Positions 1,503-37,481 of a DNA stretch of 39,202 nucleotides are shown piece after piece. Location of the stretch: positions 1 through 39,202 of the forward strand of contig JAABUD010000191.1 in NCBI GenBank assembly GCA_011389555.1, in the 5' to 3' direction. The notes under the pieces are model-generated. The model had not been told where the DNA came from. It saw only the letters and a list, made by a program, of their open reading frames with translations, and did not search any database. The position numbers were made by a program, and so were the translations under genes. Numbering within the stretch: position 1 is the first letter of the stretch; every line of letters begins with the position of its first letter. This DNA is from Desulfotignum sp. GTDB taxonomy: Bacteria; Desulfobacterota; Desulfobacteria; Desulfobacterales; Desulfobacteraceae.

Positions 1503-2366
1503 TCAAGGGCGCTTAGCCAAAAAGTGGGCTCCAACGGTGTAATCCGCCGTTTTCGTGTTGGTTTTTGCCACACATTCTGCTTCCGCAAAACCGGCCTTTT
1601 CCATGAGTTCGATTTGATCCCGCACGGAGATGGCGCCGCCTACTCATTGCGTCCATGCTTCCAGGCTGGTTGCCCCGTAAGATTGCGCCTCTGCATCAAG
1701 CACAATATCGGCTATCTGCAGTCTCCCGCCGGGCTTCAATACCCTAAAAATCTCGCCAAAAAGTTCGACCTTTGCCGGTGAGAGATTGATGACTCCGTTG
1801 GAAATCACCGTGTCAAAGCTGTGGTCGTCATAAGGAAGTATTTCGGAGGATACCTGCCTTGTTTCGATATCTTTTATGCCTACGCAATCAAAATTCCGCT
1901 GAGCTTTGGCAAGCATCTCGGCGCTCAAATCAACACCGCAGACCCTGCCGTCATCCCCCACCTTATGACGGGCGACAATGAGGTCAAAACCGGCTCCGCA
2001 ACCGACATCGAGGACTCTCTCTCCCCGTTGCAGCGCCCGAATCCTAAAAGGATTACCGACCCCGCAAAAGGACTCAAGCACCTCGTCCAGCATTTTCCCT
2101 ATAATTTCCGGTTCATACCCAAGAGTGCGGGCTCCACTCCTGCCGGTTTCGTATTTGAAGTTGCCTGCCGCCGTAGCAGCCACCTGCTCATATTTTGCCT
2201 GAATTGCCCTGGAAATTTTCGCCTTTTCCTTGTAATTGAAGACCCCGGGCTCACGCTGATCCTTGGCCGTCAGGCCTGTCGGAAAAATTTCTGTCTGACC
2301 ACTGCCAGAACTCTGCCCAAGATCTCACTTGCCCATTTGCAGATTGCGAACCTGTTTTTCAGCCAT
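1503..2366 (-). CDS. SAM-dependent methyltransferase (ArsM-like), apparent selenoprotein with two UGA codons
   Basis: Class I SAM-dependent methyltransferase of the arsenite-methyltransferase/UbiE-like group. The SAM-binding motif is VLDVGCGAGFDL, followed by GVDLSAEML, FDTVISNGVINL and VLKPGGRLQIAD. Translation from the ATG at 2366, with GAGG eight bases upstream, meets UGA at codon 14 (2325-2327) and again at codon 241 (1644-1646). Both are followed by clearly coding sequence in the same frame up to a stop at 1503, giving 287 aa. The second UGA sits in EAWTQ-UGA-VGGAISV, where relatives have a W-x-x-C-x-x-GA motif, so it replaces a conserved, probably catalytic Cys. There is no ATG, GTG or TTG between the first UGA and codon 62, which argues that the first UGA is also read. 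The 60-residue N-terminal extension is unusual. The substrate (arsenic, selenium or other) is unknown. A pseudogene with two stops is the alternative, but two UGAs and no frame damage make that less likely. Confidence 0.7.
1617..1631 (-). promoter_or_regulatory. Candidate SECIS hairpin for Sec241
   Basis: A five-pair stem (ATCTC with GGGAT, one G-U pair) closes a CGTGC loop. It starts 13 bases after the UGA at 1644-1646, placing the loop G/U about 19-21 bases downstream, within the range of bacterial SECIS elements. The stem is short, so this is suggestive only. Confidence 0.35.
2294..2309 (-). promoter_or_regulatory. Candidate SECIS hairpin for Sec14
   Basis: TCTGG pairs with TCAGA (five pairs, one G-U) around a CAGTGG loop. 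The loop GU lies 23-24 bases after the UGA at 2325-2327. Spacing and loop composition fit a bacterial SECIS; the fold was judged by eye. Confidence 0.35.
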
Positions 2367-3728: not shown

Positions 3729-4939
3729 TCATACATCCATCAAATAGGATTTCAAATTCACCCTGGTATGCTTAAGGCCCAGTTTTTCACGGATATTGTC
3801 CCGGTGCGTATCTATGGCTCTCACCCCGCAGTTGAAAATCTGCGCGATCTCTTTGTTGGATAATCCCTGTTTTATGAATGCAGATACCTGTATTTCCTTA
3901 GAGGTCAGGCGGTGCATGGGATCGGACAATGTTTTTGAAAACGGGTTTACCAGCTCCTGGATGCTTTTTTCCAGCACATCAAACAGCTTGTGCTGATCAG
4001 CAGTGGAAAGCGTGTCCTTGAGCTTCAGGAGAACAGGCTGTATGACGGATGCATAATTGGCATCAATGTTTTCTTCCAATTTTTGTATATCCTGTTCCCT
4101 TTTCTGGAGCAAAACATTCAGTGTTGTATTGAGTTCTTGCAGTTCAGAGGCTTTTTTTCCAGCTCATCCCCGGCCATCTGCAACGCTTTTTCCGCTTGTT
4201 GTCGGGCACTGACATCTTTGATGATCCCTATAAAACCAATAATCTTTTGTTTGTCATCCTGTAAAAAAAATGCCGTTGTTTCCCCGGGAAACACCGTCCC
4301 AGATTTTTTTTTGTACTGTATGGTGTAGACAAAATCCGGCTGGTCAATATTTTTTTTCAGTTCTTCTCCCATCTGCCGGTATTGCTCCTGGTCATCATAC
4401 AGATGACAGGTTTTTCTACCCTTGATTTGATCCAGGGTGTAGCCGAACAGCTTTGTGAAGGACCGGTTGCAATTGATGATGTTTCTGTCGGTGTCTGTCA
4501 ATAAAGTGGCATCCCGGTTGCTGTCGAACGACAGCCTGTAGTGTGCTTCTTTTTCCCTGAGGGCTTTTTCAAGCAGCTTGCGGTGGGTGACATCCTTGGT
4601 TATGGACAAAATGATTTTTTCATGGTTGATTTCCAGTATCCGGGCGGACATGAGGCCAATCAGGGTTTTGCCGTTTTTGCCGACATACGCGAATTCACGG
4701 TTTTGAACAGATCCGGTCTTATTGAGGGCATGGACCAGATGCTGCCTGTCTTCAGGATGTTTCCAAATACCCAGTTCAAGGGAGGTTTTCCCCATCACAT
4801 CCTTATTGGTATACCCTGTCATTTTTGTAAACCCGGCGTTGATATTCAAATACAATCCGTCATCCAGGCGGTTCAGATTTATGGCATCCGGACTGGTTTC
4901 AAACGCCTGTCGAAACAGGTCCTTTTTTTTATCAGGCAT
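3729..4939 (-). CDS. PAS-PAS-LuxR transcriptional regulator, split by a frameshift
   Basis: The first frame (4118-4939, start ATG with GGGAGG upstream) encodes two PAS domains (about residues 8-125 and 135-255), each ending in a typical PAC segment (SITKDVTHRK, GIIKDVSARQ). It then runs out of frame after ELEKK. The overlapping frame carries on as ASELQELN, a coiled coil, and a C-terminal LuxR/GerE helix-turn-helix (LTSKEIQVSAFIKQGLSNKE and on to RVNLKSYLMDV). The join is exactly at GAA AAA AAG, where a -1 slip gives a seamless 403-residue protein. It is either one gene produced by programmed -1 frameshifting, or a one-base deletion in a run of A. The role is probably sensing, by small ligand or redox through PAS, coupled to DNA binding. 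Targets are unknown. Confidence 0.7.
4151..4158 (-). other. A AAA AAG slippery heptamer at the PAS/LuxR frame junction
   Basis: On the coding strand the run reads (G)AA AAA AAG, in phase as A-AAA-AAG, the same heptamer used for -1 frameshifting in E. coli dnaX. A GGGGAT sequence lies about ten bases upstream, where dnaX has its stimulatory Shine-Dalgarno-like site. A -1 slip here restores the LuxR frame exactly. I do not see a strong downstream hairpin. Confidence 0.45.
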
Positions 4940-5140
4940 GTTATTGCCTCCCGTGAATCCGAATAATCAAAATGCAAACAATATAAATATGAGCAAAAAA
5001 CGGGCCAGAATATTAATTATAAAATACCTTTTGAAGTTGAATTATTTACAACAAAGGAGTTTCTCCTCCATGTCCTGAAGAAGATACCGAGCAAATTATT
5101 GCAAACCATACTTTCAAGGCACAGGAAAAAGGATACGCTT

Positions 5141-5159
5141 GGCCGGTGAATCACCGGCC
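5141..5159 (-). terminator. Terminator-like palindrome at the end of the cobT unit
   Basis: GGCCGGTGA and TCACCGGCC form a near-perfect inverted repeat around one central base and include the stop codon of the dehydrogenase-CobT gene. On the minus strand it is followed after about 10 bases by CCTTTTTCC. It is probably an intrinsic terminator for the 8593-5151 unit. Confidence 0.45.
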
Positions 5160-7280
5160 CAATGATGCCCGGGAAATTTTAGCCTCGTCAAACGAGGCCA
5201 TCCGGGTCATGATTTTACAGGCCGCGTCTGCCATATCAATGGCAAGGGCTGCGCCCGTGCCTTCTCCCAGCCGCATGTCAAAGTCGATTAGCGGGGTAAT
5301 CCCCATGAATGAAAGGGCTGCGGCCTGGGCAGGCTCAACGGATTTATGGCCGCTGATCAGGTATCCTTTGATCCCCGGATTGATGGCATAGGCAATCAAT
5401 CCGGCAGCCGTGGAAATCAGCCCGTCGAGGACAACGGCGGTCTGCCTGGATGCAGCTGCAAGAGCGGCTCCGGCAATGCCGCCCAGTTCAAATCCACCGA
5501 TCTTTGTGAGAATATCCAGCCCATCTTGGGGGTTGACACCATGAAAGGCCAATACACGCTCAATTACTTGGGTTTTATGGGCAAGTCCTTTGTTGTCGAC
5601 ACCCGTGCCCCGTCCCGTGGCCACCTCTGGTGCAAGGCCGCATACAGTGCAGATAATTGCAGAGGCACTGGTGGTATTTCCGATCCCCATTTCCCCCAAT
5701 CCCACAATGTCCACCGGTTCTTTTTCAAAGGCTTCCAGAAAAACCGCCATCCCTTTTTCCAGGGAATCAACTGCCTGGGAACGGGACATGGCAGGTTCCA
5801 GGGCAAAATTACGGGTGCCCGGCCCCACTTTTCTGATAATCAGATCGGGATGGGGTGCGAACGACTTGACAACACCCATGTCCACCACTTTCAGGTCAAT
5901 GCCGTGATGACAGCAGAGTACATTGATGGCAGCGCCCCCGGTCAGAAAATTTTCCACCATCTGCCCGGTCACCTCCCTGGGATAGGCGGAAACACCTTCT
6001 TCTGTGATGCCATGGTCTCCGGCAAAGACGAACAATGCTTTTCTGCGGAGTGCAGGGTTCAGCCGCCCCTGGATCAGGCTCATTCTGACGGCAAGCGATT
6101 CAAGCTTTCCGAGCGCTCCCAATGGTTTTGTCTTTTCATCTATTTTTGCACAGGCTGCCGGAAAAAGATCGTTGGACAAAGGCCTGATTCCTTTGACCAC
6201 ATCCTGGAAAAGCTGTTTTTCCGAAACGGCCCGACCTGCTGCAGTATTAATTTTCACGGGCTGGACAGAAGCTTTATTATATGATGTTTCCATCCAGGGG
6301 TCCCGGGGAGCAAGGGTGAAATCCAGGATATACTTGAGATCGTTGCCGGACAGAACTTTGGGCATCAGGGCCGGCACCCTATGGGGCGGAACAATGTCTT
6401 GTATCAGTAATTTGAGGTATGCCTGATGCGAGGTCATGAACGGTATGGCTTTTTCCATATGTGTCCGGGTCATGCCGTAAGCACCGGCAAGTTTTGCTTC
6501 TTTGTAGTGGATAAGATTCACCAGGTTGGTATCAATCGTTTCGTTTTTGGTAATTCCGCTGAAAAAGGAAATCCAGCCCGCCCTGGCCACTTTTGATACA
6601 GCCTGGCAGAAAGCGATGACATCGGGGCAGGCATTGATGACCAGATCAAATTCACTGTGATGGGTGTCTTTTTCACAGCAAATGCCTGCTGCATCCAGAA
6701 AGGACCTGACGTGATGAATCTTGGATTCCTTTTTTTCGATGACCAGGGGTTGCAGACCAATGCTTTTTGCATACAGGGCTGCAGCAAGCCCCATGGTACC
6801 GCCTCCGTAAATAAGAAGCCGGCTGTTTCTTTTATATTCGATTTTTTCAAAGGCATTGATGATACAGCCGACCGGTTCTCCAAAACAAGCAATATGGTTA
6901 TCCAGACCAGCAGGCAGTGGGACGAGGTTCCGGGAAGGAACAACAACATGTGAAGCAAAACCGCCGTCATGGTGAAATCCGATGATTTTCATCTCCTCAC
7001 ACAGATTCTCCAATCCCTGCCGACAGTAGCGGCAGGTGGTGCAGTTTGTTCCCGGCCATACCATAAAACGGTTCCCATCGGTATCCCTGACCACCATCTC
7101 ATGTCCCATAATTCGTGGCAGGATCAGGTCCCGGTGGCCCTGCTCCCACATTTTGGCGTCAGTCCGGCATACGGCACAGCACAGCACCTCCACTCTGACA
7201 GAGCCGTCCGGGATATCCGGGATGAGGGGATCCTGTTTTACAATTTCGAGGGTTTTAAGCCGGTTCAGAACTATTTTCAT
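5151..7280 (-). CDS. cobT: Fusion of zinc-dependent dehydrogenase (MDR) and CobT phosphoribosyltransferase
   Basis: A 709-aa two-domain protein. Residues about 1-340 are a medium-chain dehydrogenase: catalytic-zinc region CCAVCRTD and GHEMV, a structural-zinc cluster CTTCRYCRQGLENLC, and a Rossmann loop GGGTMGL. Residues about 355-709 are a complete CobT (nicotinate-nucleotide:dimethylbenzimidazole phosphoribosyltransferase): TKPLGALGKLE, FAGDHGI, VDMGVV, GIGNTTSAS and the catalytic-Glu segment RLGEGTGAAL. CobT activates the lower-ligand base for the cobalamin nucleotide loop. The open frame extends 49 codons further upstream, but the start MKIVLNRL, preceded by a GAGTGG-type site, is preferred. 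It overlaps the end of the small upstream gene. The cobT assignment is secure. The fused dehydrogenase is unusual and may act on the base or its precursor, which is inference. Confidence 0.9.
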   Translation of the reverse strand: MKIVLNRLKTLEIVKQDPLIPDIPDGSVRVEVLCCAVCRTDAKMWEQGHRDLILPRIMGHEMVVRDTDGNRFMVWPGTNCTTCRYCRQGLENLCEEMKIIGFHHDGGFASHVVVPSRNLVPLPAGLDNHIACFGEPVGCIINAFEKIEYKRNSRLLIYGGGTMGLAAALYAKSIGLQPLVIEKKESKIHHVRSFLDAAGICCEKDTHHSEFDLVINACPDVIAFCQAVSKVARAGWISFFSGITKNETIDTNLVNLIHYKEAKLAGAYGMTRTHMEKAIPFMTSHQAYLKLLIQDIVPPHRVPALMPKVLSGNDLKYILDFTLAPRDPWMETSYNKASVQPVKINTAAGRAVSEKQLFQDVVKGIRPLSNDLFPAACAKIDEKTKPLGALGKLESLAVRMSLIQGRLNPALRRKALFVFAGDHGITEEGVSAYPREVTGQMVENFLTGGAAINVLCCHHGIDLKVVDMGVVKSFAPHPDLIIRKVGPGTRNFALEPAMSRSQAVDSLEKGMAVFLEAFEKEPVDIVGLGEMGIGNTTSASAIICTVCGLAPEVATGRGTGVDNKGLAHKTQVIERVLAFHGVNPQDGLDILTKIGGFELGGIAGAALAAASRQTAVVLDGLISTAAGLIAYAINPGIKGYLISGHKSVEPAQAAALSFMGITPLIDFDMRLGEGTGAALAIDMADAACKIMTRMASFDEAKISRASLGR

Positions 7281-8593: not shown

Positions 8594-8649
8594 ATACCTC
8601 CTGAATATACAGATTCAGAAGGATTTGATTCCAGCAAAAATCCCTGGTT

Positions 8650-8840
8650 CAGCAAAGGGCAGGCTTTCCGACTCACGGATCATCCTTGGAATGCGCCTTC
8701 CCCCTCTGGGGGATACAGAAGAGTGGCCTGAATGCATTCCTTGTCCCCGATTACGGCAACGGCTGGCATGCGATGGAATTCCACCATCTTTCCTTTTACC
8801 CGGAGTTCCGTTGAAGTAACGGAATCCGGCACCTCAATGC
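8650..8840 (-). promoter_or_regulatory. Cobalamin riboswitch
   Basis: Read on the minus strand the region has the ordered landmarks of the AdoCbl riboswitch: GAGGTGCCGGA, then TAAAAGGAAAGA, GGTGGAATTCCATC, GCATGCCAGCC, a GCCACTCT (B12-box-like) segment, GGGGGAAGGC, and finally GAGTCGGAAAGCCTGCC. It ends about 55 bases before the start codon of the TrpD-like gene, so it should repress the TrpD-like/76-aa/CobT unit when cobalamin is high. The rest of 8594-9054 shows no gene. Confidence 0.85.
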
Positions 8841-9054
8841 AAAAATGATTTATTTAATATACTGGGAGATGGCTTGTCAATACCAATTTTTTTCCTGCAC
8901 AACCACATCAAAAATTATGCATATGGCGCAAGTCTATTTTTCCGTATCATTCGGTGAGACAGATAGGTTCGATGATGCCTGTCCTGTATTCGAAATACCT
9001 GTCCGGTCAGGTTTCCCAAAAGTTTGTTTTTTCAATGTCTGGCAGCTTGGCCGT

Positions 9055-26112: not shown

Positions 26113-26805
26113 ATGACGAAAATGGATAAACCGATTTCTGAGGGTCAGCAAAAAATTCTGGACGACCTGACACGTGCAGTTGTCCAGTTCAAGGAAAAAG
26201 ACTGCCGTCATGCCGCCCAGGCCCTGCTGGATAATGGTATGGATCCCCTTGCCGGGCTGACCCTGGGACTTGTCCCTGGGATGAAAAAAGCTGGCATCCT
26301 TTTTGATACCAATGTATATTTTGTACCTGAGGTCATGCTGTGCACCGATGCATTTTATGCTGCACTGAAAATTCTACAGCCCCACCTTCCGAAAACCGAT
26401 GATCCCGGCCGGCTGACCGTGGTCATCGGTACGATTCTAGGCGATGTCCACGACATCGGCAAAAATCTGGTGAAAATCATGTTTGAAGTTCAGGGATGGG
26501 ATGTCCACGATCTGGGAAGAGATGTTCCGTTTGAACGGTTTCTTCAGAAACATGAAGAGATCCAGTCTGATTTCATTGCCATTTCCGCCATGATGACCAC
26601 CACCATGATGGGGATGAAAAAGGTGATCGCCATGGCCAAAGAGCATGACCCCCACTGTCTGATAATGCTCGGAGGGGCATCGGTCACCCGTGAAATCGCA
26701 GATCTGTTCGGCGCGGACGGTTATGCCGCCTCCTCCATGGACGCTGTGGATGAAGCATTGAAAATGATTGCACATCATAACGCTTTCCAGCAAAAAAACA
26801 CATGA
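26113..26805 (+). CDS. Corrinoid-binding methyl-carrier protein 1 (MtaC/MtbC family)
   Basis: 230 aa. N-terminal four-helix cap domain (about 1-95), then a B12-binding Rossmann domain with the cobalt-ligand motif GDVHDIGKN (DxHxxG, about residue 113), SAMMTTTMMGMKKVI and LGGASVTREIADLFGADGY. It carries the methyl group on cobalt between methyltransferases. It resembles the second corrinoid protein at 29.1 kb over its whole length. It lies 55 bp after the response regulator and 235 bp before the MtrH-like gene, so it may be transcribed apart from the rest of the island. The ribosome-binding site is weak. Confidence 0.93.
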   Translation: MTKMDKPISEGQQKILDDLTRAVVQFKEKDCRHAAQALLDNGMDPLAGLTLGLVPGMKKAGILFDTNVYFVPEVMLCTDAFYAALKILQPHLPKTDDPGRLTVVIGTILGDVHDIGKNLVKIMFEVQGWDVHDLGRDVPFERFLQKHEEIQSDFIAISAMMTTTMMGMKKVIAMAKEHDPHCLIMLGGASVTREIADLFGADGYAASSMDAVDEALKMIAHHNAFQQKNT

Positions 26806-27039: not shown

Positions 27040-27987
27040 ATGTTTCAATTTCAAAAAGAACAGAAAACATGTGAAATCGGAGGAGTTACATTCGGAGGTC
27101 AGCCCGGTGACTATCCAACTGTAGTTTGTAATTCAATTTTTCAGAAAGGTGACAAGGTCTTCCAGGGAAAGCGCAAAGACGGATTTGACCACGACATGGC
27201 ACGGGAACTGCTGAAAACCCAGGAACGATTGACCCAGGAAACCGGAATCCCCGGAATGGCAGATATCGTCGCAAACACAGGCAAAGAATTCAAAGATTTC
27301 ATTGATTTTGTCGTGGAAAATTCCGACATGCCGTTTTGCATTGACGCCTGGATCCTGAAGCCCAAACTGGAGGCAGCCGCATACTGCGCTGAAAAAGGAC
27401 TCATGGACCGGATGTTCTACAACAGCATTACGGTATGGGAAAAGGATCTTGATGCGGAAATCAGTGAGATGGCCAAAATTGGTGTAAAAAATGTTCTGCT
27501 TGTGGCCTTTGACCAGGAAGACCAGATGCCCTCCGGTAGAATTACCGGCACCCAGAAACTGCTGGACGCCATTGACCGAAACGGGGCGAAATTTGACAAT
27601 ATCTTTATCGACACATCGGTGATGAATGGTCCTGCTACAGCTCTGTGCGGACTGGCCAATAAATTGATCAAGGAAAAATGGGGGCTTCCTACGAGCTCTG
27701 CGCCCTCCAATGGGTCCTACATGTGGAAAGCAGCCAGGGAAAAGTGGGGGTTCAAAGGATGGGCTGCTGCAGATGCGGCATTGGAATCTCTGGCTGCTTT
27801 CATGACCCATGACATGATTTTTTCAGGACCCATGGTCGGGGCACAACGGATCATGCCTGCCATTGCAATGGCGAATGCATTTCAGGCCACAGCGGTTTAC
27901 AGCGAAACCGGACGGCTGCCCATAGATATCAACCATCCACTCTACAAATTGTTTCCCGATTTTGTAGAAAACCTGAAAAACAGCTGA
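27040..27987 (+). CDS. MtrH-family methyltransferase (tetrahydropterin/tetrahydrofolate methyl transfer)
   Basis: 315 aa, start ATG with GGAGGAA. It resembles MtrH, the subunit of methyltetrahydromethanopterin:coenzyme M methyltransferase that moves the methyl group between the pterin and cobalt: QKTCEIGGVTFGGQPGDYPT, GIPGMADIVANTGKEF, DAWILKPKLEAA, FIDTSVMNGPATALCGLA and a C-terminal GPMVGAQRIMPAIAMANAF. No other Mtr subunits are encoded here, so it would work as a soluble enzyme with the corrinoid proteins, methylating or demethylating tetrahydrofolate in a bacterium. First gene of the main methyl-transfer unit. Confidence 0.88.
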   Translation: MFQFQKEQKTCEIGGVTFGGQPGDYPTVVCNSIFQKGDKVFQGKRKDGFDHDMARELLKTQERLTQETGIPGMADIVANTGKEFKDFIDFVVENSDMPFCIDAWILKPKLEAAAYCAEKGLMDRMFYNSITVWEKDLDAEISEMAKIGVKNVLLVAFDQEDQMPSGRITGTQKLLDAIDRNGAKFDNIFIDTSVMNGPATALCGLANKLIKEKWGLPTSSAPSNGSYMWKAAREKWGFKGWAAADAALESLAAFMTHDMIFSGPMVGAQRIMPAIAMANAFQATAVYSETGRLPIDINHPLYKLFPDFVENLKNS

Positions 27988-28052: not shown

Positions 28053-29102
28053 ATGTCGGAACTTACTGGAAAAGAAAGAGTAGTCAAAATGTTCAAGCGT
28101 GAACCTCTGGATACCATGCCCTGTTTCAGTGGGCAGGGAGCTGTTGTGGTCCAGGCCATTGAAAAAATGGGAACCCAGTTTGCAAAAATTCACACAGATG
28201 CCCGTCTGATGGCTGAATCCGCAATCACCTCCGCCCGGTTGTTCAATATGGATGCCGTGGTGATTCCGTATGATATGGCCGCTGTTGCAGAAGCAATGGG
28301 CCGGGGAATCTCTCTGTATGAAAATGCGGAAGGCATCATCTATCCGACGGTTCCGGACAAATGGAAGGACCTCGACGAAATTGACATCCCTGCCGACTAC
28401 ATGAACCAGGGCCGCCTTCCTATGATCGATGACGCTTTTAAAATCATAAAGGCTGAAGCCCCGGACCTGGCTGTCGGAGCCTGGGTACTCGGGCCGTTTA
28501 CCCTTGCCGGCCAGATCATGGAACTGGATATATTGTTGAAGGGGTTGAAGAAGAAAAAGAATGAAATTGCCGCATTTCTGGATCAGATGACCCAGGTGAC
28601 CATTGATATGTGCAAGCATTATCAGGAACTGGATGTGGACTTCATTTCTGTAAGGGATATGGGGTCTGGAACAGATCTTCTTTCGCCGCGCATGTGGAAA
28701 ACCCTGGTTGGTCCGAACCTGAAAAAAGTGTTTGATTCCATCACCTGCGTTCCTTCCGTAAACCATATCTGCGGCTCCACTGACATGATCATTGAAATGA
28801 TGCATGAATGCGGCGCTGACGCTCTTTCTGTGGATCAGAAGAACAACATTGTTCAAACCCGGGAGAAACTGGGAAAAGACGTTCTTTTGCTGGGAAATTT
28901 TGATCCCTATAAAACCCTGACACAGATTGAAGATGTCACAGAGGTGGAAGCGGTCATCAAGGATTGTATTGACAATGGTGTGGATGCTGTCTGGCCTGGA
29001 TGCGATATCTGGCCTGACGTAAGAAAGGAAAACATGGAAACCTATGTCAGAACGGTCAAGGAACATGGCAAAAAAGCATCCCCGGCTGTAGGCAGAGTAT
29101 AA
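28053..29102 (+). CDS. UroD-family corrinoid methyltransferase (MtaA/CmuA-like)
   Basis: 349 aa from MSELTGKERV, with AAGGAAA upstream; a TTG five codons earlier is less likely. Zinc ligands appear as NHICGSTD (H-x-C-G) and WPGCDIWPD near the C-terminus. Other family landmarks: LGPFTLAGQIM, ISVRDMGSGTDLLSP and LLGNFDPYKTL. It should transfer a methyl group between a substrate or thiol and the corrinoid protein encoded next. Its neighbours (MtrH-like, corrinoid protein, activator) make a complete substrate-to-folate methyl-transfer set. A 374-aa antisense frame over it is a shadow. Confidence 0.9.
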   Translation: MSELTGKERVVKMFKREPLDTMPCFSGQGAVVVQAIEKMGTQFAKIHTDARLMAESAITSARLFNMDAVVIPYDMAAVAEAMGRGISLYENAEGIIYPTVPDKWKDLDEIDIPADYMNQGRLPMIDDAFKIIKAEAPDLAVGAWVLGPFTLAGQIMELDILLKGLKKKKNEIAAFLDQMTQVTIDMCKHYQELDVDFISVRDMGSGTDLLSPRMWKTLVGPNLKKVFDSITCVPSVNHICGSTDMIIEMMHECGADALSVDQKNNIVQTREKLGKDVLLLGNFDPYKTLTQIEDVTEVEAVIKDCIDNGVDAVWPGCDIWPDVRKENMETYVRTVKEHGKKASPAVGRV

Positions 29103-29138: not shown

Positions 29139-29810
29139 ATGTCTAACCAGGAAGAAATTTTAAATGCATTGAAAACAGCAGTTGTGGAGTATGAAGAAGA
29201 TGATTGTGCCGAAGCGGCCCAGCGTGCTCTGGATGAAGGTGTCGATCCCATGGTGGCTGTCATGGACGGACTGGCAGCCGGTATGGAAGAAGTCGGCGTT
29301 TTGTTTGATACCAATGAATATTTCGTGCCTGAAGTCCTGATGTGCGCAGATGCATTATATAAAGGACTGGACATTCTCAGACCCCATATCAAACTTGACT
29401 CGGACGCACCCAAGGCATCCGTTGTGATCGGTTCCATCCAGGGAGATGTGCATGACATCGGAAAAAACCTGGTAAAAATGATGTTTGATGTGGCCGGATG
29501 GGATGTCCATGACCTGGGCCGCGACGTACCGCTTGAAAATTTTGTGGAAAAACAGCTTGATACGAAATCAGATGTTCTGGCCATGTCTGCCATGATGACC
29601 ACGACCATGATGGGAATGAAAAAGGTGATCGCCATGGTCAAGGAAAAAAATCCAGACTGTCTGATCATGCTGGGCGGTGCTCCTGTAACCCGTGACGTTG
29701 CCAATCTGTTTGGTGCGGATGGATATGCAGAATCTGCAGGAAACGCTGTTTCTGAAGGCATCAAGATGATCGGAAGGCTCAGGGAATACCAGAAAGGTGA
29801 AGTCAAGTAA
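29139..29810 (+). CDS. Corrinoid-binding methyl-carrier protein 2
   Basis: 223 aa, AAGGAGAAA before the ATG. Same architecture as the 26.1-kb protein: helical cap (EEDDCAEAAQRALDEGVDP), B12-domain motif GDVHDIGKN, SAMMTTTMMGMKKVI and LGGAPVTRDVANLFGADGY. Directly between the UroD-family methyltransferase and the reductive activator, it is the core methyl carrier of this operon. It has the high acidic content typical of such proteins. Confidence 0.94.
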   Translation: MSNQEEILNALKTAVVEYEEDDCAEAAQRALDEGVDPMVAVMDGLAAGMEEVGVLFDTNEYFVPEVLMCADALYKGLDILRPHIKLDSDAPKASVVIGSIQGDVHDIGKNLVKMMFDVAGWDVHDLGRDVPLENFVEKQLDTKSDVLAMSAMMTTTMMGMKKVIAMVKEKNPDCLIMLGGAPVTRDVANLFGADGYAESAGNAVSEGIKMIGRLREYQKGEVK

Positions 29811-29830: not shown

Positions 29831-31930
29831 ATGGCACAAGAATATGTTACTGTTATTTTCCAGCCGTCGGGGAGACGCGGCAAAGTACCCAAAGGGTGTA
29901 ACGTTATAGAGGCTTCCCGGCTCATTGGCGTTGATATTGAAGCGCTGTGCGGAGAAACCAAGGTTTGCGGAAAGTGTATTGTCCGGATTGAAGAAGGCCA
30001 TTTTGAAAAATATAATATACAGTCCTCCATGGATCATGTCACCCCATGGCAGGAAGATGTTGAAGCCAAATTCATCAACTCTGAAAAAAAGGAAAAAGGA
30101 TTCCGGCTCGGATGTGTGGCAAAAATTCAGGACGACATCCTGATTTTTGTACCGGAAGAGTCCAGAGCCGGAAAACAAGTGGTTTCAAAAGCGGCCAGGG
30201 ATATCAATATTGAATTCAACCCCATGGTCCGGCTGTATACCATTGAATTGAAAAAACCGGATTTTGAAGACAAGGTTGGAGACTGGGAACGTCTGGCCAA
30301 CGGGCTTTCAAGAGAATACGGGCTCACCGGCCTGACAATAGATATCGTCACCTTGAGAACCCTTCCCGGTGTGCTTCGTGCACAGAACTGGGTGGTTACA
30401 GTGTCGGTCTGGAATGACAAGGAAGTTATCCGTATACAGCCGGGCAGGGTCAAAAAAGCATATGGGATCGCCATTGATGTAGGCACCACTACATGTGCCG
30501 GCTATCTGTGCGACCTGACCACCATGCAGGTGATCAATACATCGTCCATGATGAACCCCCAGTGTAAATACGGAGAAGATGTCATGGCGAGAATCACCTT
30601 TCACATGACTACACCAGGCGGTTTGAAACGGATGAGCGATGATATCATCGAAGGCATTAATTCATTGATTGAAAAGGCAGTTGCACCTACCCATCCCAAG
30701 AAAAAAAAGACAAAGAAAGCAAAAGGTGATGACGGGCCGGATGAATATCGCGAGATCATCGAGGAGGGTGTCGAATACCTGAGAATCAGCAAGCACGACA
30801 TTGTTGACCTGACCATTGGTTTCAATACAGCCATGCATCATATCCTTCTGGGTCTGGATCCGGAACCGGTTGGTCTGGCACCTTTTCCACCCGTCATTCA
30901 TCACAGCCTGGATATCAAGGCAAGGGATCTTTGTATTGATATCAATCCCTCATCCTATGTGTTTGCCATGCCCAACGAGGCTGGTTTTGTGGGTGGAGAT
31001 AATGTCGGGGTGCTTCTGGCGGAAGAGCCATATAAAAGTGATGAAATCCAGTTGATTATCGATATAGGGACAAACGGTGAACTGATTCTCGGCAATCGCC
31101 ACAAACTATACTCATCCTCCTGTGCGACAGGACCGGCCATGGAGGGTGCCCAGCTCAGTTTCGGTATGCGGGCCGCCCCGGGCGCCATCGAAAGGATTGA
31201 AATCGATCCTGAGACCCAGGAAGTCGATTACCGAGTCATCGGACATGACAAATCTCGAAAATTTTCCAAGCCCGAAGAGATGAAAGTCAAAGGTATCTGC
31301 GGATCAGGTATCCTGGATGTTCTTGCCGAGCTATACCGGTCCAGCGTAATCACCAAGACCGGTGTATTCAACAAAAAGATGTTAAAGACCAATCCGCGCT
31401 TCCGAATTAATCCGGATAACAAACAGCCCGAATTTGTCCTGGCATGGAAGGAGGATTCATCCATTGACAAAGATATTGTCATCACACAAAAAGACATCCG
31501 GCAGATTCAGCTGGCCAAAGGGGCTCTGTATGCCGGCTGCAAACTGATGATGAAACGCATGGGAATCGACAAGGTGGACACTGTCAAAATTGCCGGTGCG
31601 TTCGGTACGCATGTGGATCGGGAAAAAGCGCTTGTCATGGGACTTTTCCCTGATTGTGAAATTGAAAAGATCCATGGTGTAGGGAATGCGGCAGGCGACG
31701 GTTGCCGTGCCGCACTGTTGAACCGGAAGAAACGGGATGAAGCCAACTGGTGTGCAAGAAATGTTCAATACCTGGAACTGACAGTAGAACCAACGTTTGA
31801 GCAGGATTTCATGGAAGCCATGCAGTTGCCGCATATGAAGGATCAATTTCCTCATCTTGAAGGGGTTGTGCCGGATCATGTGCTCCATCAGGGTCCGAAG
31901 GGCCCTGTAAAACCTGAACAGAAAAATTAA
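29831..31930 (+). CDS. Reductive activator of corrinoid proteins (RACE family, 2Fe-2S plus ASKHA ATPase, DUF4445)
   Basis: 699 aa. N-terminal plant-type [2Fe-2S] domain with Cys40, Cys46, Cys49 (ALCGETKVCGKC) and a fourth near 97 (RLGCVAK). After a linker comes the actin-like ATPase domain: AIDVGTTTCAGYL, TIGFNTAMHHILLG, FVGGDNVGVLLAE, IDIGTNGEL, GICGSGILDV, and AGAFGTHVDREKALVMGLFP. These enzymes use ATP to re-reduce Co(II) corrinoid proteins that have gone inactive. A Lys-rich insert (KKKKTKKAKGDDGPD, about residue 290) is unusual. It lies 20 bp behind corrinoid protein 2, its expected client. Confidence 0.93.
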   Translation: MAQEYVTVIFQPSGRRGKVPKGCNVIEASRLIGVDIEALCGETKVCGKCIVRIEEGHFEKYNIQSSMDHVTPWQEDVEAKFINSEKKEKGFRLGCVAKIQDDILIFVPEESRAGKQVVSKAARDINIEFNPMVRLYTIELKKPDFEDKVGDWERLANGLSREYGLTGLTIDIVTLRTLPGVLRAQNWVVTVSVWNDKEVIRIQPGRVKKAYGIAIDVGTTTCAGYLCDLTTMQVINTSSMMNPQCKYGEDVMARITFHMTTPGGLKRMSDDIIEGINSLIEKAVAPTHPKKKKTKKAKGDDGPDEYREIIEEGVEYLRISKHDIVDLTIGFNTAMHHILLGLDPEPVGLAPFPPVIHHSLDIKARDLCIDINPSSYVFAMPNEAGFVGGDNVGVLLAEEPYKSDEIQLIIDIGTNGELILGNRHKLYSSSCATGPAMEGAQLSFGMRAAPGAIERIEIDPETQEVDYRVIGHDKSRKFSKPEEMKVKGICGSGILDVLAELYRSSVITKTGVFNKKMLKTNPRFRINPDNKQPEFVLAWKEDSSIDKDIVITQKDIRQIQLAKGALYAGCKLMMKRMGIDKVDTVKIAGAFGTHVDREKALVMGLFPDCEIEKIHGVGNAAGDGCRAALLNRKKRDEANWCARNVQYLELTVEPTFEQDFMEAMQLPHMKDQFPHLEGVVPDHVLHQGPKGPVKPEQKN

Positions 31931-31980: not shown

Positions 31981-32034
31981 GTTTTTCCCGGAAGCCGTAT
32001 TCCTGTTCAATCTTGAATGCCTTCCGGGAAAAAC
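31981..32034 (+). repeat. 14-bp perfect inverted repeat between the activator and the GICGF-protein gene
   Basis: GTTTTTCCCGGAAG and CTTCCGGGAAAAAC flank a 26-base loop that itself holds TTCAA/TTGAA. No T-run follows, so it is unlikely to be a plain terminator. It is more likely an mRNA processing or stabilising hairpin setting the ratio of upstream to downstream genes. It lies 50 bp after the activator stop. Confidence 0.55.
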
Positions 32035-32079
32035 CATCACACTGGGGGAGTCCATGCCATTCATAAAATCCGGAGGGTT

Positions 32080-32430
32080 ATGGAAAATCAAATAATCCAG
32101 GTGAATCCGGGAATATGCGGTTTCATATGCCGGATTGAAAGCCGGCAGACAGACAAACGTACTGTTGACATTTCAATCACCGGCTCGGAATGCACTATGA
32201 TCAAAACATTTTCCGATTTGCTCCCGTCAATCAGTCTTAAGGATCTTTTTGTTCCTTTAACCCGCAATCCGATCATCATAACTGCGGACCGGGCAGGCTG
32301 TCATCCTGCCTGCCCGGTTCCTGTAGCAGTGATCAAGTCTGCTGAAACAGCCCTTGGACTTGCTCTTCCAAAAGATGTTTCCATCATTTTTTCAACCCCG
32401 GAAAAGAATGTCGACCATGGCTACGAATAA
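32080..32430 (+). CDS. Small conserved GICGF-motif protein, unknown function
   Basis: 116 aa from MENQIIQVN, start ATG directly after GGAGG; the frame is open 21 codons upstream. Contains GICGFICRIE, ITGSECTMIKTF, RAGCHPACPVPVAVIKSAET and ALPKDVSII. The Cys and His residues (GICGF, SEC, GCHPACPVP) could bind metal. It resembles a family of small uncharacterised proteins from anaerobes, possibly DUF6951, though I am not sure of that name. It starts the second half of the operon and is followed by a thioredoxin-fold and a DUF2284 protein. Confidence 0.7.
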   Translation: MENQIIQVNPGICGFICRIESRQTDKRTVDISITGSECTMIKTFSDLLPSISLKDLFVPLTRNPIIITADRAGCHPACPVPVAVIKSAETALGLALPKDVSIIFSTPEKNVDHGYE

Positions 32431-32441
32431 AGGAGAACCGC

Positions 32442-32807
32442 ATGATAAATGAATCGGAAAAAGAGAGAATGGCACCGGTTATTCCCCGGACAGCTGCTGG
32501 ATCCGCGCCTGTTCTTCTGGAAATCATCTGCGAACGTGTCCATTGTGTCATGTATGATTATGCCATCCAAACCGTTGACATGGTGGTTGAAGAATTCGGA
32601 AGCGAGGTGGAAGTTCAGACCATCGTCCGGCGTGGTGATCTGAAAAACAGCATGCGGTTTCTGGCGGCGTGCAAACGGGCAAAAAAGATGCTTCCGGTAC
32701 CCACTATCCTGATCAATAATGAAGTGGTCTTTACGAATGTTCCCCGTCCGGAGGAACTCAAGCATGCTTTGGAAACCGCTTTGGCATCCGGCAGGAAGTC
32801 CATATGA
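32442..32807 (+). CDS. Thioredoxin-fold protein, degenerate active site
   Basis: 121 aa, AAGGAGAACC upstream. It belongs to the same small family as the four genes at 34.7-36.2 kb: N-terminal strand (VLLEIICERVHC), helix, VEVQTIVRRG, then the cis-Pro segment LPVPTILINNEVVFTNVPRP. The CxxC motif is not kept: Cys35 remains, the second position is Tyr (HCVMY), and a Cys30 lies five residues earlier. It may bind a partner rather than do dithiol chemistry. Its stop overlaps the next start (ATGA). Confidence 0.7.
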   Translation: MINESEKERMAPVIPRTAAGSAPVLLEIICERVHCVMYDYAIQTVDMVVEEFGSEVEVQTIVRRGDLKNSMRFLAACKRAKKMLPVPTILINNEVVFTNVPRPEELKHALETALASGRKSI

Positions 32808-33430
32808 AAAAAAAAATCGTGTATTTGCCACAGCCTGAACCTCAAACACACATCACTTTCCGTTCCAGAGCCGGTGTGACGGATGACATCCTTGCTCTTC
32901 TCCATGAAAAAGGCCGCCAATACGGCGTGGAATCGGTTTTGCCTTTCAGGACGGACAACATTGTTCTGGCACAGTGGGTGAATCTCAAATGCCGGTACGG
33001 GTGCTCGCAGTATAACGCCAACTGGTCCTGCCCCCCTGCCACACCGGATCTTGACCAAGTCAAGAGAATGATGAAAGAATATTCCACAGCCCTGCTTCTT
33101 GCAGGCAGCCAGAACCGGAATGATTTTTATAAGGACAGCAACCGGAACCGGACAGACCAGGTCAAATACTGGAAAGGGACTGTCAGTCTGGAACGTATGC
33201 TTTTTTTACTAGGATATGACAAAGCCATCAGTCTGGTCAGTGGAGCCTGTTCCCTCTGCCGGGAGTGTGCATATCCAAAAGCCTGCCGCTTTCCCATGGA
33301 AAAACGGCCTACTGTTGAATCATTTTATATCGACCTTGTCGGCACGCTGAAACACCTGGGCATTGAAACCTGTGTGGCCATGGCGCACCATGAAACCTTT
33401 AAATACTATTCCATTATATTACTGGATTAG
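32804..33430 (+). CDS. DUF2284 predicted metal-binding protein, second copy
   Basis: 208 aa. The family Cys pattern is complete: LKCRYGCSQYNANWSCPPATP, then CSLCRECAYPKACRFPMEKRP. It is similar in layout to the 9.1-kb copy, with a longer middle part. No function is established for the family. It is the last gene of the unit that begins with the MtrH-like gene and is translationally coupled to the thioredoxin-fold gene before it. Confidence 0.85.
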   Translation: MKKKIVYLPQPEPQTHITFRSRAGVTDDILALLHEKGRQYGVESVLPFRTDNIVLAQWVNLKCRYGCSQYNANWSCPPATPDLDQVKRMMKEYSTALLLAGSQNRNDFYKDSNRNRTDQVKYWKGTVSLERMLFLLGYDKAISLVSGACSLCRECAYPKACRFPMEKRPTVESFYIDLVGTLKHLGIETCVAMAHHETFKYYSIILLD

Positions 33431-33628: not shown

Positions 33629-34663
33629 ATGGCAAAACAGATGTTGATCGATGCATACAGGGGAAAACGAACCGTTTCAGCCCCATGGGTTCCCTATGCA
33701 GGTGTTCATTGTGCATTTCTTATCAATGAAAAAGCTGATGCATTTCTCCAGGATCCGGAACTACTGGCAAAGGGCGTGGTGTACACCGCAGAAAAATACA
33801 AGGCTGACGGTATTCCCTTGTTGTTTGACCTGTCGGTTGAAGCCAATTCCGTAGGGTGTGATCTGAAATGGTGGGAGGACAATGTGCCGTCCATATCCAG
33901 TCACCCCTGTTCGGATAAGACACCGGAAGAGGCAAAACTCAAATTGCCCACACCGGATTCCGGACGGTGGCCCCAGATCTTCCAGGCCGCCGAGATCGCA
34001 AAACCGAAACTGGAAGCCCTGGACTGTGCCATGATGGGCCTTATCTGCGGTCCCCTGACCCTGGCCTCCCATCTGGCCGGAGTTCGTATTTTTACGGATG
34101 TTTACAAGCATCCTGACTTTGCCCACAAAGTACTCAAATTCGCCGGCCAGGTCTGTGATGCAGCTGCCAAATTTTACATTCAGATGGGCTGCGACATCAT
34201 TGCAATCGTTGATCCTGTGGCATCCCAGATCAGGGATACCACGTTCCTTGAGTTTGTTACCCCCAACTGCCAGGCTGCGATTAACACCATTCATGAAGCC
34301 GGCATAACCTCTTCGTTTTTTATCTGCGGCGACTGCACCAAAGTCATCGATTCTGTCTGTAACATCGGTACCCATGGTTTTGCCATTGATGAACAACTCA
34401 ACATGAACTTCATACGGGATAAGGCTGTCAAGGCCGGGAAGGGATTTGGTGGAAACCTGAAGCTGACCCTGTCCCTGAGTCTCGGGCTGATTTCACCCCG
34501 GGAGGATGCCATTGTGAGCCTGGCTGCCGGCGGGTCACACGGCTATACGTTTGCCCCTGGCTGAGATCTCCCCTACGATGTTCCGGTGGAACATATGATC
34601 CAAGCATACGAAACCAAGGCATGGTTTGAAGAAACTTTCCCGCGGTATCCGGAAACCAAATAA
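33629..34663 (+). CDS. UroD-family corrinoid methyltransferase, apparent selenoprotein (Sec312)
   Basis: 344 aa with UGA at 34562-34564 read through. The start ATG follows GAGGAG. UroD/MtaA-type barrel: GLICGPLTLASHLAG, DIIAIVDPVASQI, FVTPNCQAAI. The UGA falls in FAPG-UGA-DLPYDVPVE, where relatives have PGCDLPxD and the 28.1-kb paralogue has PGCDIWPD, so it replaces the third zinc-ligand Cys. The coding sequence continues for 32 more codons (ending FEETFPRYPETK) to TAA. A seven-pair hairpin with a GGT loop follows the UGA. The first ligand motif is also unusual: FFICGDC, with Phe where the His of H-x-C-G normally is, and an extra Cys. Both metal-site changes suggest altered chemistry, perhaps a different methyl acceptor. 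Without readthrough it ends at residue 311. Confidence 0.85.
34578..34594 (+). promoter_or_regulatory. SECIS-like hairpin for Sec312 of the UroD protein
   Basis: ATGTTCC and GGAACAT form a perfect seven-pair stem with a GGT loop located 21-23 bases after the UGA. Loop and distance are close to the E. coli fdhF SECIS (GGU at about 19-21). Confidence 0.75.
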
Positions 34664-34680: not shown

Positions 34681-35076
34681 ATGGCGGAAGAAAAAATTAC
34701 AGTTGACGTTTTGACCCTTGACAGTGTCCAGTGTGCGGCATGTGGATACATGATGGAGTCAATGGCGGCTATGCCCCAGGAAGTTCAGCAGATTATTGAA
34801 TACAGGGAATGGTCGGTCAAAAACAAAACCGGTATCGGAAAATTCATGGAATTAAAAGGCAAGGTTCTGCCGTCAATCTGCATTGAGGGTGACATTGTTT
34901 TTCCAAGTATTATCCCCCAGTATGAAGAATTGATTGATGCATTGATAGAGAGGACCAAAAACCCTGACCTGGTGGCTAAATTAAAGGCGGCCCGGGACAA
35001 GGGTTTCGAGTTTGACAAAATAACGGAAAACCTTGACAAGGCAGGGGCAGGAAAAAACACCAGAGTTGACAGCTGA
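34681..35076 (+). CDS. Thioredoxin-fold redox protein with CAAC motif
   Basis: 131 aa, AAGGAGAG upstream, 17 bp after the Sec-UroD stop. Redox motif Cys18-Ala-Ala-Cys21 (SVQCAACGYM), then VKNKTGIGKFMELKGKVLPS with cis-Pro in LPSICIEGDIVFPSIIPQ. The helix after CxxC and the x-P-S-I-x-x-x-G strand are shared with the following genes. It is probably a dithiol partner of the adjacent methyltransferase. Confidence 0.75.
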   Translation: MAEEKITVDVLTLDSVQCAACGYMMESMAAMPQEVQQIIEYREWSVKNKTGIGKFMELKGKVLPSICIEGDIVFPSIIPQYEELIDALIERTKNPDLVAKLKAARDKGFEFDKITENLDKAGAGKNTRVDS

Positions 35077-35163: not shown

Positions 35164-35511
35164 ATGACAGACAGTAAAAAATTGATCATAGAAGTTATGT
35201 ACAAGGCTGCCCACTGCCTTCCTTGTGTATATATGGATAAAGCAGTCCTGGATATCCTTCCGGATTACCGGGAAATCGTAGAATACCGTCGGGTGGACAT
35301 TCTCAGGGGTGCCGGCAAACAGCGGTTCCTTGACCTGTCTGTGTCCCTGTTCGGCAAAGATGGCGTGTTCAAGCATAAACGAATTGCACCGATCCCCTCT
35401 CTTTTTATCAATGCTGAACTTTTTTTTGACCTGATTCCTCCGCGACATGAACTGGAAGATGCCATCCGGGAAATGGCGGGTGAAATGCCCGTTTTCAGCC
35501 ATGACATGTGA
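35164..35511 (+). CDS. Thioredoxin-fold redox protein with CLPC motif
   Basis: 115 aa. Active site Cys18-Leu-Pro-Cys21 in KAAHCLPCVYMDKAV, then EYRRVDILRG and cis-Pro in APIPSLFINAELFFDLIPP. It is the all-Cys version of the next two genes, which have UGA at the first Cys. It overlaps the next gene by 11 bp. The ribosome-binding site is weak. Confidence 0.78.
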   Translation: MTDSKKLIIEVMYKAAHCLPCVYMDKAVLDILPDYREIVEYRRVDILRGAGKQRFLDLSVSLFGKDGVFKHKRIAPIPSLFINAELFFDLIPPRHELEDAIREMAGEMPVFSHDM

Positions 35512-35836
35512 CAAGTCGACACAGGATACCATTGTTCTGGTGGAAGTGCTTCATGAAGGGGAGCACTGAATCCCCTGCCACTACATGGCCAGGCTGGTCG
35601 AATCGGTAGTAAAGGAATTTGAATCTTCTGTCCAGTACAGGAAGGTCGTCACCAGAACATATGACGGGGCACGACGTTACCAGGCCCTTGTCCGCCAGTC
35701 AAGCCGGCTCCTGCCCGTACCTTCCATTGTCGTAAACGGCAGTCTGGCTTTTGACAGTATCCCGGACAGGGATCGCTTGAGAAAATTTCTGAATCGCCTT
35801 GTTCATCATAAACCCCGAAAGGATGTGGATTCTTGA
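35501..35836 (+). CDS. Thioredoxin-fold selenoprotein, U-I-P-C active site (Sec23)
   Basis: 111 aa from MTCDKSTQDT with UGA at 35567-35569 read as Sec. EGEH-UGA-IPCHYMARLV aligns with the upstream gene's KAAHCLPCVYMDKAV, so UGA sits exactly at the first Cys of CxxC. The rest of the fold matches: VQYRKVVTRTYDG and cis-Pro in LPVPSIVVNGSLAFDSIPD. The conservation across the UGA rules out chance. A hairpin with a GG-containing loop follows. A caller without Sec awareness would start at the internal ATG (35585) and lose the active site. Confidence 0.82.
35586..35600 (+). promoter_or_regulatory. SECIS-like hairpin for Sec23 of the U-I-P-C protein
   Basis: TGGCC pairs with GGTCG (five pairs, two G-U) around an AGGCT loop; the loop GG is 23-24 bases after the UGA at 35567-35569. 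Confidence 0.5.
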
Positions 35837-36159
35837 ATAAAGTTATTATAGATGTCCTTTTGACCGACTTCAGACAGTGAACCGCCTGCGTCTACATGGC
35901 GGAGTCGGTAAAGGTATTACCGGAAGTTTATCAGGAAATGATAGAAGTTTTCGAGTGGGATATGCGAACCCTGGAAGGTGTAAGCAGATTCAGGGAAATA
36001 AGAGCCAAATCACTTCCCAGTATTGCCATGGATGGAGAAATTGTGTATGCCTCCATGATCCCGGGCCAGGAAATCCTTCAACAGGAAATACAAAACCGGT
36101 TTCACCGAAAAAACGGTATCCAACAGGTGGAACATTATGTACAAGGAGAATTGCCATGA
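35833..36159 (+). CDS. Thioredoxin-fold selenoprotein, U-T-A-C active site (Sec16)
   Basis: 108 aa starting at TTG (MNKVIIDVLL), which overlaps the previous stop as TTGA, with AAAGGA about a dozen bases upstream. UGA at 35878-35880 gives RQ-UGA-TACVYMAESV, aligning with HCLPCVYM and HUIPCHYM of the two preceding genes. The cis-Pro segment is LPSIAMDGEIVYASMIPG. No GGU-loop hairpin is obvious; a CCGCC/GGCGG pairing starts two bases after the UGA. The stop overlaps the next ATG (ATGA). As with the previous gene, an internal ATG (35896) would give a protein without its active site. Confidence 0.78.
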
Positions 36160-36401
36160 AGATTCAAGTGCTTGGAACCGGCTGCAAAAGCTGTGACACA
36201 CTCTACGCCAATGCGGTGACTGCCATAAGAAAAATCGGGATGGAACAGACCGCGCAGCTTGAAAAGATCAATGATATTGATTACTTCACCAGGATGGGTG
36301 TGTTCACAACCCCGGGGCTTGTAGTGGACGGGGAATTGATTTCAACCGGGCGTGTGGTTTCTGAAGAAGCACTGATCGAAATGCTGACCAGCAGAAAATA
36401 A
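36156..36401 (+). CDS. Small redox-active disulfide protein (thioredoxin family, TIGR00412-like)
   Basis: 81 aa from MKIQVLGTGCKSCDTLY, with AAGGAG seven bases upstream. CxxC is Cys10-Lys-Ser-Cys13 and the cis-Pro segment is TTPGLVVDGELISTGR. It is typical of the roughly 80-aa redox-active disulfide protein 2 group found in anaerobes. It is coupled to the two selenoprotein genes and is probably the electron-transfer partner that reduces them. Confidence 0.85.
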   Translation: MKIQVLGTGCKSCDTLYANAVTAIRKIGMEQTAQLEKINDIDYFTRMGVFTTPGLVVDGELISTGRVVSEEALIEMLTSRK

Positions 36402-36434: not shown

Positions 36435-37481
36435 ATGAGCGGTAAAACACATGTTATCTTGATAACCGGTTTTCTCGGTAGCGGGAAAACCACTTTTTTA
36501 AACCGGATCATCAAAAAATTTCCGCCGAATCAGAAGCTGATGATACTGATGAACGAGTTTGGAGAAATCGGCCTTGATGGAACCCTTCTTGAATCCGATG
36601 ATCTGGATATCCTTGAAATCAGTAAAGGGTCGATTTTCTGTGTCTGTGTGAAAACCGATTTTATCCGTGGCCTGAATGAAATCGCACAGAAAATTCAGCC
36701 GGATGTCCTTATTGTCGAATCTACAGGTGTTGCCAATCCTTCCGACCTGAAAAAAGACCTCACCCTTTCCATATTTCAAGGCCGGTTTGATCTCACGCAT
36801 CAGATCTGCATGATTGATGCCGATAGCTTTGAAGACGCCTATCAAAGCTTTGTGTCCGTTGAAAAACAGATCGCTTCTTCCACTTTTTTTATCATTAACA
36901 AGGTTGACCTGGCAGGTCCGGACACCCTTGCCAGAATCAAAAAAATCATTCATGGGCATCATACCACTCCGGAAATCCTTGAAACAACCTTTGCAGAAGT
37001 CCCTTTGGAACGTTTTATACCAGCCGCATCCAACAGGTCGAACAGCGATCTGAATCCAGCAAAAGTGATTGATGACCAACAGCTCGATCAAGCCATTGAA
37101 AGCATGCTGGCAACTTCAGACCCCAATACCACCCCACCGGACCGGCTGCTTTCCGCCGTTTTCTCATGGGCCGGCAGCCATATCAATGATTTCAGAAACA
37201 TTCTTCCGGACCTGCCCAAAGGGCTGATACGGGCCAAAGGATTTCTGCAGGAAAAAGAAACCGTCTACCTGTTTAATTTGGTGATGGGACAGCGGAACCT
37301 GGAGATATATACCTCCAAAAAAGATCTCCGGGCACTTTTGAATCGGCTTGTATTTATCGGTCCGCCCGAAGTGATTGAATCGCTTCACGTCCTCAGCAGA
37401 AAGTATCCGGATCTGATTCAGGACTCCGTATTCGATCCCATGGAAAAACAGCCCGTTCAGGCAGCGGACAGACAAGGCTGA
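36435..37481 (+). CDS. CobW-like G3E GTPase with C-terminal domain
   Basis: 348 aa, AAAGGAG upstream. Walker A ITGFLGSGKTTFLN, switch MNEFGEIGLDG, then GSIFCVCVKTDF where most family members have GCxCC, VESTGVANPSD and NKVDLAGP. A C-terminal CobW_C-like domain follows from about residue 230 (VFSWAGSHIND, GLIRAKGFLQEKE). It is the third G3E-type protein in the window and is probably a metal-insertion or activation factor for the corrinoid or zinc methyltransferases. Confidence 0.88.
   Translation: MSGKTHVILITGFLGSGKTTFLNRIIKKFPPNQKLMILMNEFGEIGLDGTLLESDDLDILEISKGSIFCVCVKTDFIRGLNEIAQKIQPDVLIVESTGVANPSDLKKDLTLSIFQGRFDLTHQICMIDADSFEDAYQSFVSVEKQIASSTFFIINKVDLAGPDTLARIKKIIHGHHTTPEILETTFAEVPLERFIPAASNRSNSDLNPAKVIDDQQLDQAIESMLATSDPNTTPPDRLLSAVFSWAGSHINDFRNILPDLPKGLIRAKGFLQEKETVYLFNLVMGQRNLEIYTSKKDLRALLNRLVFIGPPEVIESLHVLSRKYPDLIQDSVFDPMEKQPVQAADRQG

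Follow-up and report, generated by a model that had tools for sequence, protein, structure and literature searches.

We analysed a 39,202-nucleotide stretch of Desulfotignum sp. DNA (contig JAABUD010000191.1; hereafter the window), which carries on its plus strand a gene for a 344-residue methyltransferase of the UroD family (33629–34663) with an in-frame UGA as codon 312. The reading frame opens with ATG at 33629, runs through the UGA at 34562–34564 and continues for 32 sense codons to a TAA at 34661–34663. The Pfam URO-D match covers residues 3–325 and spans the UGA, so the tail is part of the family. This match and the fold place the protein in the UroD superfamily; a comparison with PDB structures, which also lists MetE chains, shows fold kinship only. 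By alignment, the UGA occupies the column of the PGC metal-ligand cysteine of MtaA, the methylcobalamin:coenzyme M methyltransferase of Methanosarcina mazei (PDB 4ay7/4ay8), to which the enzyme is 23% identical. Comparison with relatives strongly supports the reading of this codon as selenocysteine (Sec), at the C-terminal ligand Cys column of a UroD-type corrinoid methyltransferase.

Reading the UGA as selenocysteine

A scan of a collection with one genome per species returned 52 loci, two of them partial and not reaching the Sec codon; Desulfospira joergensenii, Desulfofundulus australicus and Desulfocicer vacuolatum are among the species with the gene. In all 50 full-length loci, which span Desulfobacterota and Bacillota (Desulfotomaculum and Desulfofundulus), the same codon is UGA, and conserved sequence continues after it. 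A preliminary description of the window had proposed Sec at the PGC column on the basis of this UGA and the 32 codons beyond it, and had named as grounds for doubt homologues that truly end before the codon, a different codon on resequencing, and a genome that lacks selenocysteine machinery. The proposal is borne out by the 50 loci: the frame goes on in each, the same UGA recurs in other genomes, and the alignment that the description recommended finds Cys at this column in some orthologues. Downstream of the UGA, nonsynonymous differences (pN) are far rarer than synonymous ones (pS), at 0.014 vs 0.519 against one relative (L021) and likewise for the nearest relatives in general, and the most distant of 14 pairs still give pN of 0.22–0.28 vs pS of 0.43–0.75.

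A hairpin of the bacterial selenocysteine insertion sequence type lies at 34578–34594 on the plus strand, with a stem of seven pairs (34578–34584 with 34588–34594) and a GGU loop (34585–34587). It starts 13 bases past the UGA and its loop lies 21–23 bases past it, just where the preliminary description had placed a seven-pair hairpin. Across 51 sequences, the stem is kept in the same register with seven pairs in 40, six in nine, five in one and four in one. Bacterial hairpins of this type lie shortly after the UGA and have a small loop with a G among its first two bases, and all 51 sequences satisfy this loop rule. The codons that the stem overlaps also stand out: among 170 conserved columns whose amino acid has several codons, the four highest ranks in one-codon fixation fall, in order, to Pro319 (CCG, 49/49), Val318 (GTT, 47/47), Glu321 (GAA, 47/49) and Asp317 (GAT, 46/48), against a median of 55% per column. 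This count was made on the 51 rows without L046 and L064, in which an indel moves the Sec off position 312; in a larger alignment their Sec falls in the same column. Synonymous identity in six-codon windows peaks in those starting at codons 316–318 (0.90–0.92 vs a median of 0.435). In the covariation alignment, which holds 43 of the 51 sequences (another family alignment holds 32), two-sided changes occur at three of the seven stem pairs, in four cells in total, and none of 500 shuffles reached the covariation score of the stem. Rfam, run on the window at gathering thresholds, matched only a cobalamin riboswitch, at 8641–8851 on the minus strand.

The genome that contains the window (G000) encodes both a tRNA-Sec (76.9 bits) and SelB (335.2 bits), so that for these two components the doubt about machinery does not hold. 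A selB match above cut-off is also present in all five genomes behind the Bacillota loci, and 38 of the 47 genomes of the class with a UGA gene have one at E < 1e-90. Six of the other nine carry a tRNA-Sec above cut-off, and neither was found in G313, G325 and G365. The two genomes of the class with a Cys version of the gene differ, in that G247 has a tRNA-Sec and none was found in G330, which is 73% complete.

Alternatively, translation could truly stop at the UGA, or the codon could be a sequence error, with a product that ends at residue 311. UGA does end neighbouring open frames, as a true stop would lead one to expect, but the comparative data weigh strongly against this: all 50 relatives, which come from assemblies other than this one, share the codon, the region beyond it is under purifying selection, orthologues have Cys codons at the column, and the stem codons are frozen. 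In addition, an end at residue 311 would delete the last long helix of the modelled fold (residues 320–336). We give this alternative very little probability. Reassignment of the code is a separate candidate, and UGA terminates seven of the 12 other open frames examined in the window, so the code has not simply been reassigned. On the recurrence of the UGA, the low pN, the frozen stem codons and the UGA-ended frames, we rejected stop, error and reassignment together. If automatic annotation treats the UGA as a stop, the protein would be expected to be truncated at residue 311.

Distribution of the family and exchange of Sec for Cys

Searches by genome give a similar picture; in these the codon was scored as TGA per row, and the exact UGA codon was read for the individually read loci. 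In the class (389 genomes), 56 genomes had matches, and after exclusion of four partial rows there were 51 full-length rows of at least 64% identity, including that of the window, 49 with one TGA and two with none. Both TGA-less rows (L102 and L103) have TGC at the Sec column, and their stem is gone. In the phylum (395 genomes), 11 genomes had matches, and eight of nine rows of at least 60% identity have one TGA; the ninth (L109) has TGT at the column and keeps much of the stem sequence, so that stem loss is clear in two of the three Cys orthologues. The phylum of Desulfofundulus gave a match in 15 of 299 genomes. In a quick tree with long outgroup branches, which does not include L109, a clade of 10 rows nested within the Sec family contains both L102 and L103 (support 99), and Cys in these two is thus probably derived.

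Beyond the family lies a sister group of 17 proteins (L104–L108, L111, L112, L119 and others), mostly about 31–40% identical to the enzyme of the window, 15 of which have Cys at the Sec column. Two of them, the fusion protein L119 and L125, both from the phylum of Desulfofundulus, are 37–38% identical to it and have UGA at the same column, and the genome of L125 holds a second copy with Cys (L118). Thus, as read from these genomes, Sec and Cys have been exchanged at this position more than once. Genome G1006 carries the Sec enzyme together with a 52% identical Cys paralogue (L124) that has Leu in place of the ligand His.

The UroD-type enzyme appears to constitute a new selenoprotein family. 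In the portions of these sources available to us, a May 2026 table that lists 119 families and subfamilies of prokaryotic selenoproteins has no UroD-type entry (PMC13188914), and no passage on a UroD-type family was found in a 2022 selenoprotein inventory. The protein matches none of the selenoprotein models in NCBIfam release 20, and full-text literature searches gave no report of a UroD-type selenoprotein family among the matches listed.

Neighbouring genes and fused relatives

The gene lies in a plus-strand cluster of corrinoid-related genes. Upstream, domain and model matches identify a corrinoid protein (26113–26805), an MtrH-family methyltransferase (27040–27987, NCBIfam), a UroD-family paralogue that alignment shows to have the ordinary His-x-Cys ... 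Cys set (28062–29102), a second corrinoid protein (29139–29810; TIGR02370, 200.9 bits vs a cut-off of 215.3), a RACo-type corrinoid reductive activase (29831–31930), a DUF6951 protein (32017–32430), a thioredoxin-like protein (32442–32807) and a predicted metal-binding protein of the DUF2284 family (32804–33430). Downstream, five thioredoxin-like genes follow, two of them with a UGA: a putative partner protein with a QCAACGYM motif (34681–35076), a protein with an HCLPC motif (35164–35511), an HUIPC selenoprotein (35501–35836, UGA at 35567–35569), a selenoprotein with the motif RQ-U-TAC (35833–36159, UGA at 35878–35880, with a TTG start assumed) and a small protein of the MTH895/ArsE family with a GCKSC motif (36156–36401). 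The HUIPC protein exceeds the cut-off of its model (NF047660, 130 vs 105 bits), and four others, those starting at 32442, 34681, 35164 and 35833, match this model below cut-off; the described HUIPC (seleno)proteins are neighbours of the enzyme and not the enzyme itself. A CobW/COG0523 GTPase (36435–37481) follows and, by domain match and locus comparison, is probably a metal chaperone of the cluster. COG0523 subfamily 13 is described as adjoining corrinoid methyltransferases in the part of that study available to us (PMC2770081).

Part of this arrangement recurs among the 50 loci, many of which are cut by contig ends. The QCAACGYM protein has a downstream homologue in 48 of them. CobW-type GTPases occur in 42 loci, corrinoid proteins in 31 and RACo in 27; the motifs RQUxAC and HUxPC occur downstream in 15 and 10 loci, respectively. 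The association of the CAAC thioredoxin-like protein with the enzyme is supported by these counts, and the protein may act as substrate carrier or reductant.

The sister group links the same two proteins in another way. Like the enzyme of the window, its members have Phe-x-Cys-Gly, His148 and PG(C/U)D. In contrast to that enzyme, 15 of the 17 have Cys, and 13 have a CxxC thioredoxin-like domain (CAAC or CPPC), a relative of the downstream CAAC protein, fused at the C-terminus rather than encoded separately. We found no description of UroD-thioredoxin fusions in a narrow literature search on this pairing. Of nine sister loci examined (two of them short), five have an MtmB/MTTB-type methyltransferase together with a corrinoid protein (L104, L105, L112, L126 and L128), while CobW-type GTPases occur in four of the nine and BCCT transporters in two; in the Sec family, one locus (L048) has both MtmB and MTTB. 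Taken with the partner genes, the fusions place the enzyme as a putative partner methyltransferase in corrinoid methyl transfer.

A candidate metal site

By alignment, Cys233 (34325–34327), the Cys of F-I-C-G, matches the Cys of H-I-C-G in MtaA. The enzyme does not have the full His-Cys-Cys zinc ligand set of MtaA, MtbA and CmuA, with Phe at the His column and Sec at the last Cys column. The preliminary description had noted both the Phe and an additional Cys in the motif FFICGDC. The first is found in all 51 sequences, whereas the second, present in the window, is conserved in only 28 of 51, and we rejected it as a family trait. In larger sets (60 family sequences, three of them with Cys; 17 sister sequences, which include L124 but not the two UroD copies of L126), the His column holds Phe in 59 of 60 and 16 of 17, with Leu in the single remaining sequence of each. 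Phe also marks a wider, mostly Cys-containing clade, and we rejected the idea that it is a consequence of Sec. His148 (34070–34072) is invariant in both sets (60/60 and 17/17), and its column is Asp in MtaA; the five His-Cys-Cys paralogues examined all have His at the H-x-C column and Gln at the 148 column. These alignments suggest that the ligand His has probably moved, to His148, which makes this residue a candidate substitute ligand. At the columns of Asp254 and Glu255, MtaA has two glutamates, one of which we take to be a zinc ligand of the substrate-free enzyme.

We propose, with a probability of about 0.6, that the protein is a selenoenzyme of the UroD fold with a metal site built on Sec312 and Cys233. 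It would have the role that MtaA and MtbA have in methanogens, transferring methyl between a methyl-corrinoid protein and either a thiol or a selenol. In this model, SelB, tRNA-Sec and the hairpin would insert Sec at codon 312, a step that comparison supports strongly, and Sec312 and Cys233 would take the places of the two soft ligands in the metal site of MtaA. His148 would probably stand in for the lost His, with a carboxylate from Asp254 or Glu255 as its partner; the metal is probably zinc, and the CobW-type GTPase encoded nearby may supply it. The downstream CAAC protein would probably carry the thiol that accepts or donates the methyl group, or keep that thiol reduced. Sec, as a softer and more acidic ligand, would speed methyl transfer or survive oxidation. 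From the fold, the ligand columns and the neighbourhood, we infer zinc-dependent transfer from corrinoid to thiol, which would entail zinc binding by this enzyme and a thiol as the methyl acceptor. More tentatively, and as a reading that we consider less likely than not, Sec itself may ligate the catalytic zinc or another metal in a Cys...Sec plus relocated-His site, with the dedicated thioredoxin-like protein as the thiol substrate in place of a small molecule like coenzyme M. To our knowledge, there is no coenzyme M in these bacteria, and we know of no established enzyme site in which zinc is bound by a selenolate. The enzyme differs from MtaA in having Sec for the PGC Cys, Phe for the ligand His, His148 for Asp and a putative thioredoxin-like partner. 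Sec is described as a ligand of Mo or W in formate dehydrogenase and of Ni in hydrogenase in the available part of the 2026 review (PMC13188914), where most prokaryotic selenoproteins still uncharacterised are expected to have redox functions.

Several observations count against the proposed role or the evidence for it. The His of the known zinc site is absent, and zinc binding may have been lost with it. The NCBIfam scores for the MtaA/MtbA group are far below cut-off (mtaA_cmuA, 117.8 vs 235.4 bits; PRK06252, 113.7 vs 244; MtaA, 101.9 vs 400; MtbA, 92.1 vs 600) and do not assign the protein to that group. Because MtrH and the His-Cys-Cys paralogue are also encoded in the cluster, one of them may already serve as the second methyltransferase. 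As regards Sec, the hairpin is not unusually stable relative to shuffles (z of 0.16, and −0.74 in a second run), so that its support is comparative, and one control, slid by +2, exceeds the stem in covariation score (0.093 vs 0.063). The Cys orthologue L103 lacks the stem of the window yet folds another hairpin (−13.7 kcal/mol), which either counts against the stem or is uninformative. SelB does not discriminate, being above cut-off in 323 of the 389 genomes of the class, and its co-occurrence with the gene thus says little. The gene is also patchy: none of the 11 genomes of the same genus listed in the class search matched.

The absence of the His raises a different possibility, that the metal was lost along with it and that Sec312 is a redox or nucleophilic group, forming a selenenylsulfide with Cys233 or becoming Se-methyl-Sec and being reset by the thioredoxin-like proteins. 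The five thioredoxin-like genes, the fused domain of the sister group and the Phe in 51 of 51 sequences are all in keeping with this idea. We nonetheless consider it unlikely, given that all 17 sister proteins hold Cys or Sec at both soft-ligand positions, that 42 of the 50 loci include a COG0523 GTPase in the vicinity, and that the new invariant His148 suggests a site that was rebuilt rather than lost.

A second possibility is that the enzyme acts on methyl-selenium or methyl-arsenic compounds, as with dimethylselenide in the SdmABC/Mlp systems, and that Sec is present because the substrate is a selenol or an arsenical. In the available parts of the published accounts, the Mlp and SdmABC methyltransferases share with the enzyme the UroD fold, corrinoid systems and a link to selenium (PMC10418091, PMC11097638), and the UroD-type Mlp2 methylates selenide (PMC10418091). 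Some members of the families of the DUF2284 and HUIPC neighbours contain Sec, an ArsE-family thioredoxin is part of the cluster, and the window also has an ArsM-like gene interrupted by an in-frame UGA. However, some 31 kb separate that gene from the enzyme gene, and it is on the opposite strand. The Mlp and SdmABC enzymes retain the His-Cys-Cys set, apart from several Mlps1, and in those parts they are not described as selenoproteins, whereas here Sec is in the enzyme itself. The MtmB/MTTB-type genes in five of nine sister loci (two with BCCT) and in L048 point instead to amine or betaine methyl groups, and this second possibility seems to us quite improbable.

If methyl transfer at a Sec312/Cys233 site is the correct reading, the known uses of selenium would extend to cobalamin-linked methyl-transfer enzymes. 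Because the family combines Sec at a zinc-type ligand column with closely related Cys orthologues and has a sister group with fused domains, the role of selenium in metal-assisted methyl transfer can be tested directly. In sulfate reducers and Bacillota, the gene is moreover a marker of a thioredoxin-rich cluster in which other proteins are also encoded with a UGA. In the window, the HUIPC protein at 35501–35836 is missing from the list of open reading frames because of its UGA, and the RQ-U-TAC protein, related to the HUIPC model, perhaps represents an undescribed selenoprotein family. Another UGA-bearing thioredoxin-like gene, with the motif TDQ-U-ASG and no second Cys, occurs in Bacillota loci (L043, 10936–11193; L045, 10254–10505; L065, 11305–11559; L047, 4604–4849). 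L043 has an aquaporin-thioredoxin fusion nearby, and in L066 a major-intrinsic-protein-like gene with one in-frame stop (4922–5755) lies upstream of the seleno-UroD gene. The ArsM-like methyltransferase of the window (1503–2183, minus strand) reads through a UGA at 1644–1646 (EAWTQ-U-VGG), and its best matches, all below cut-off, are arsenite methyltransferase selenoprotein models.
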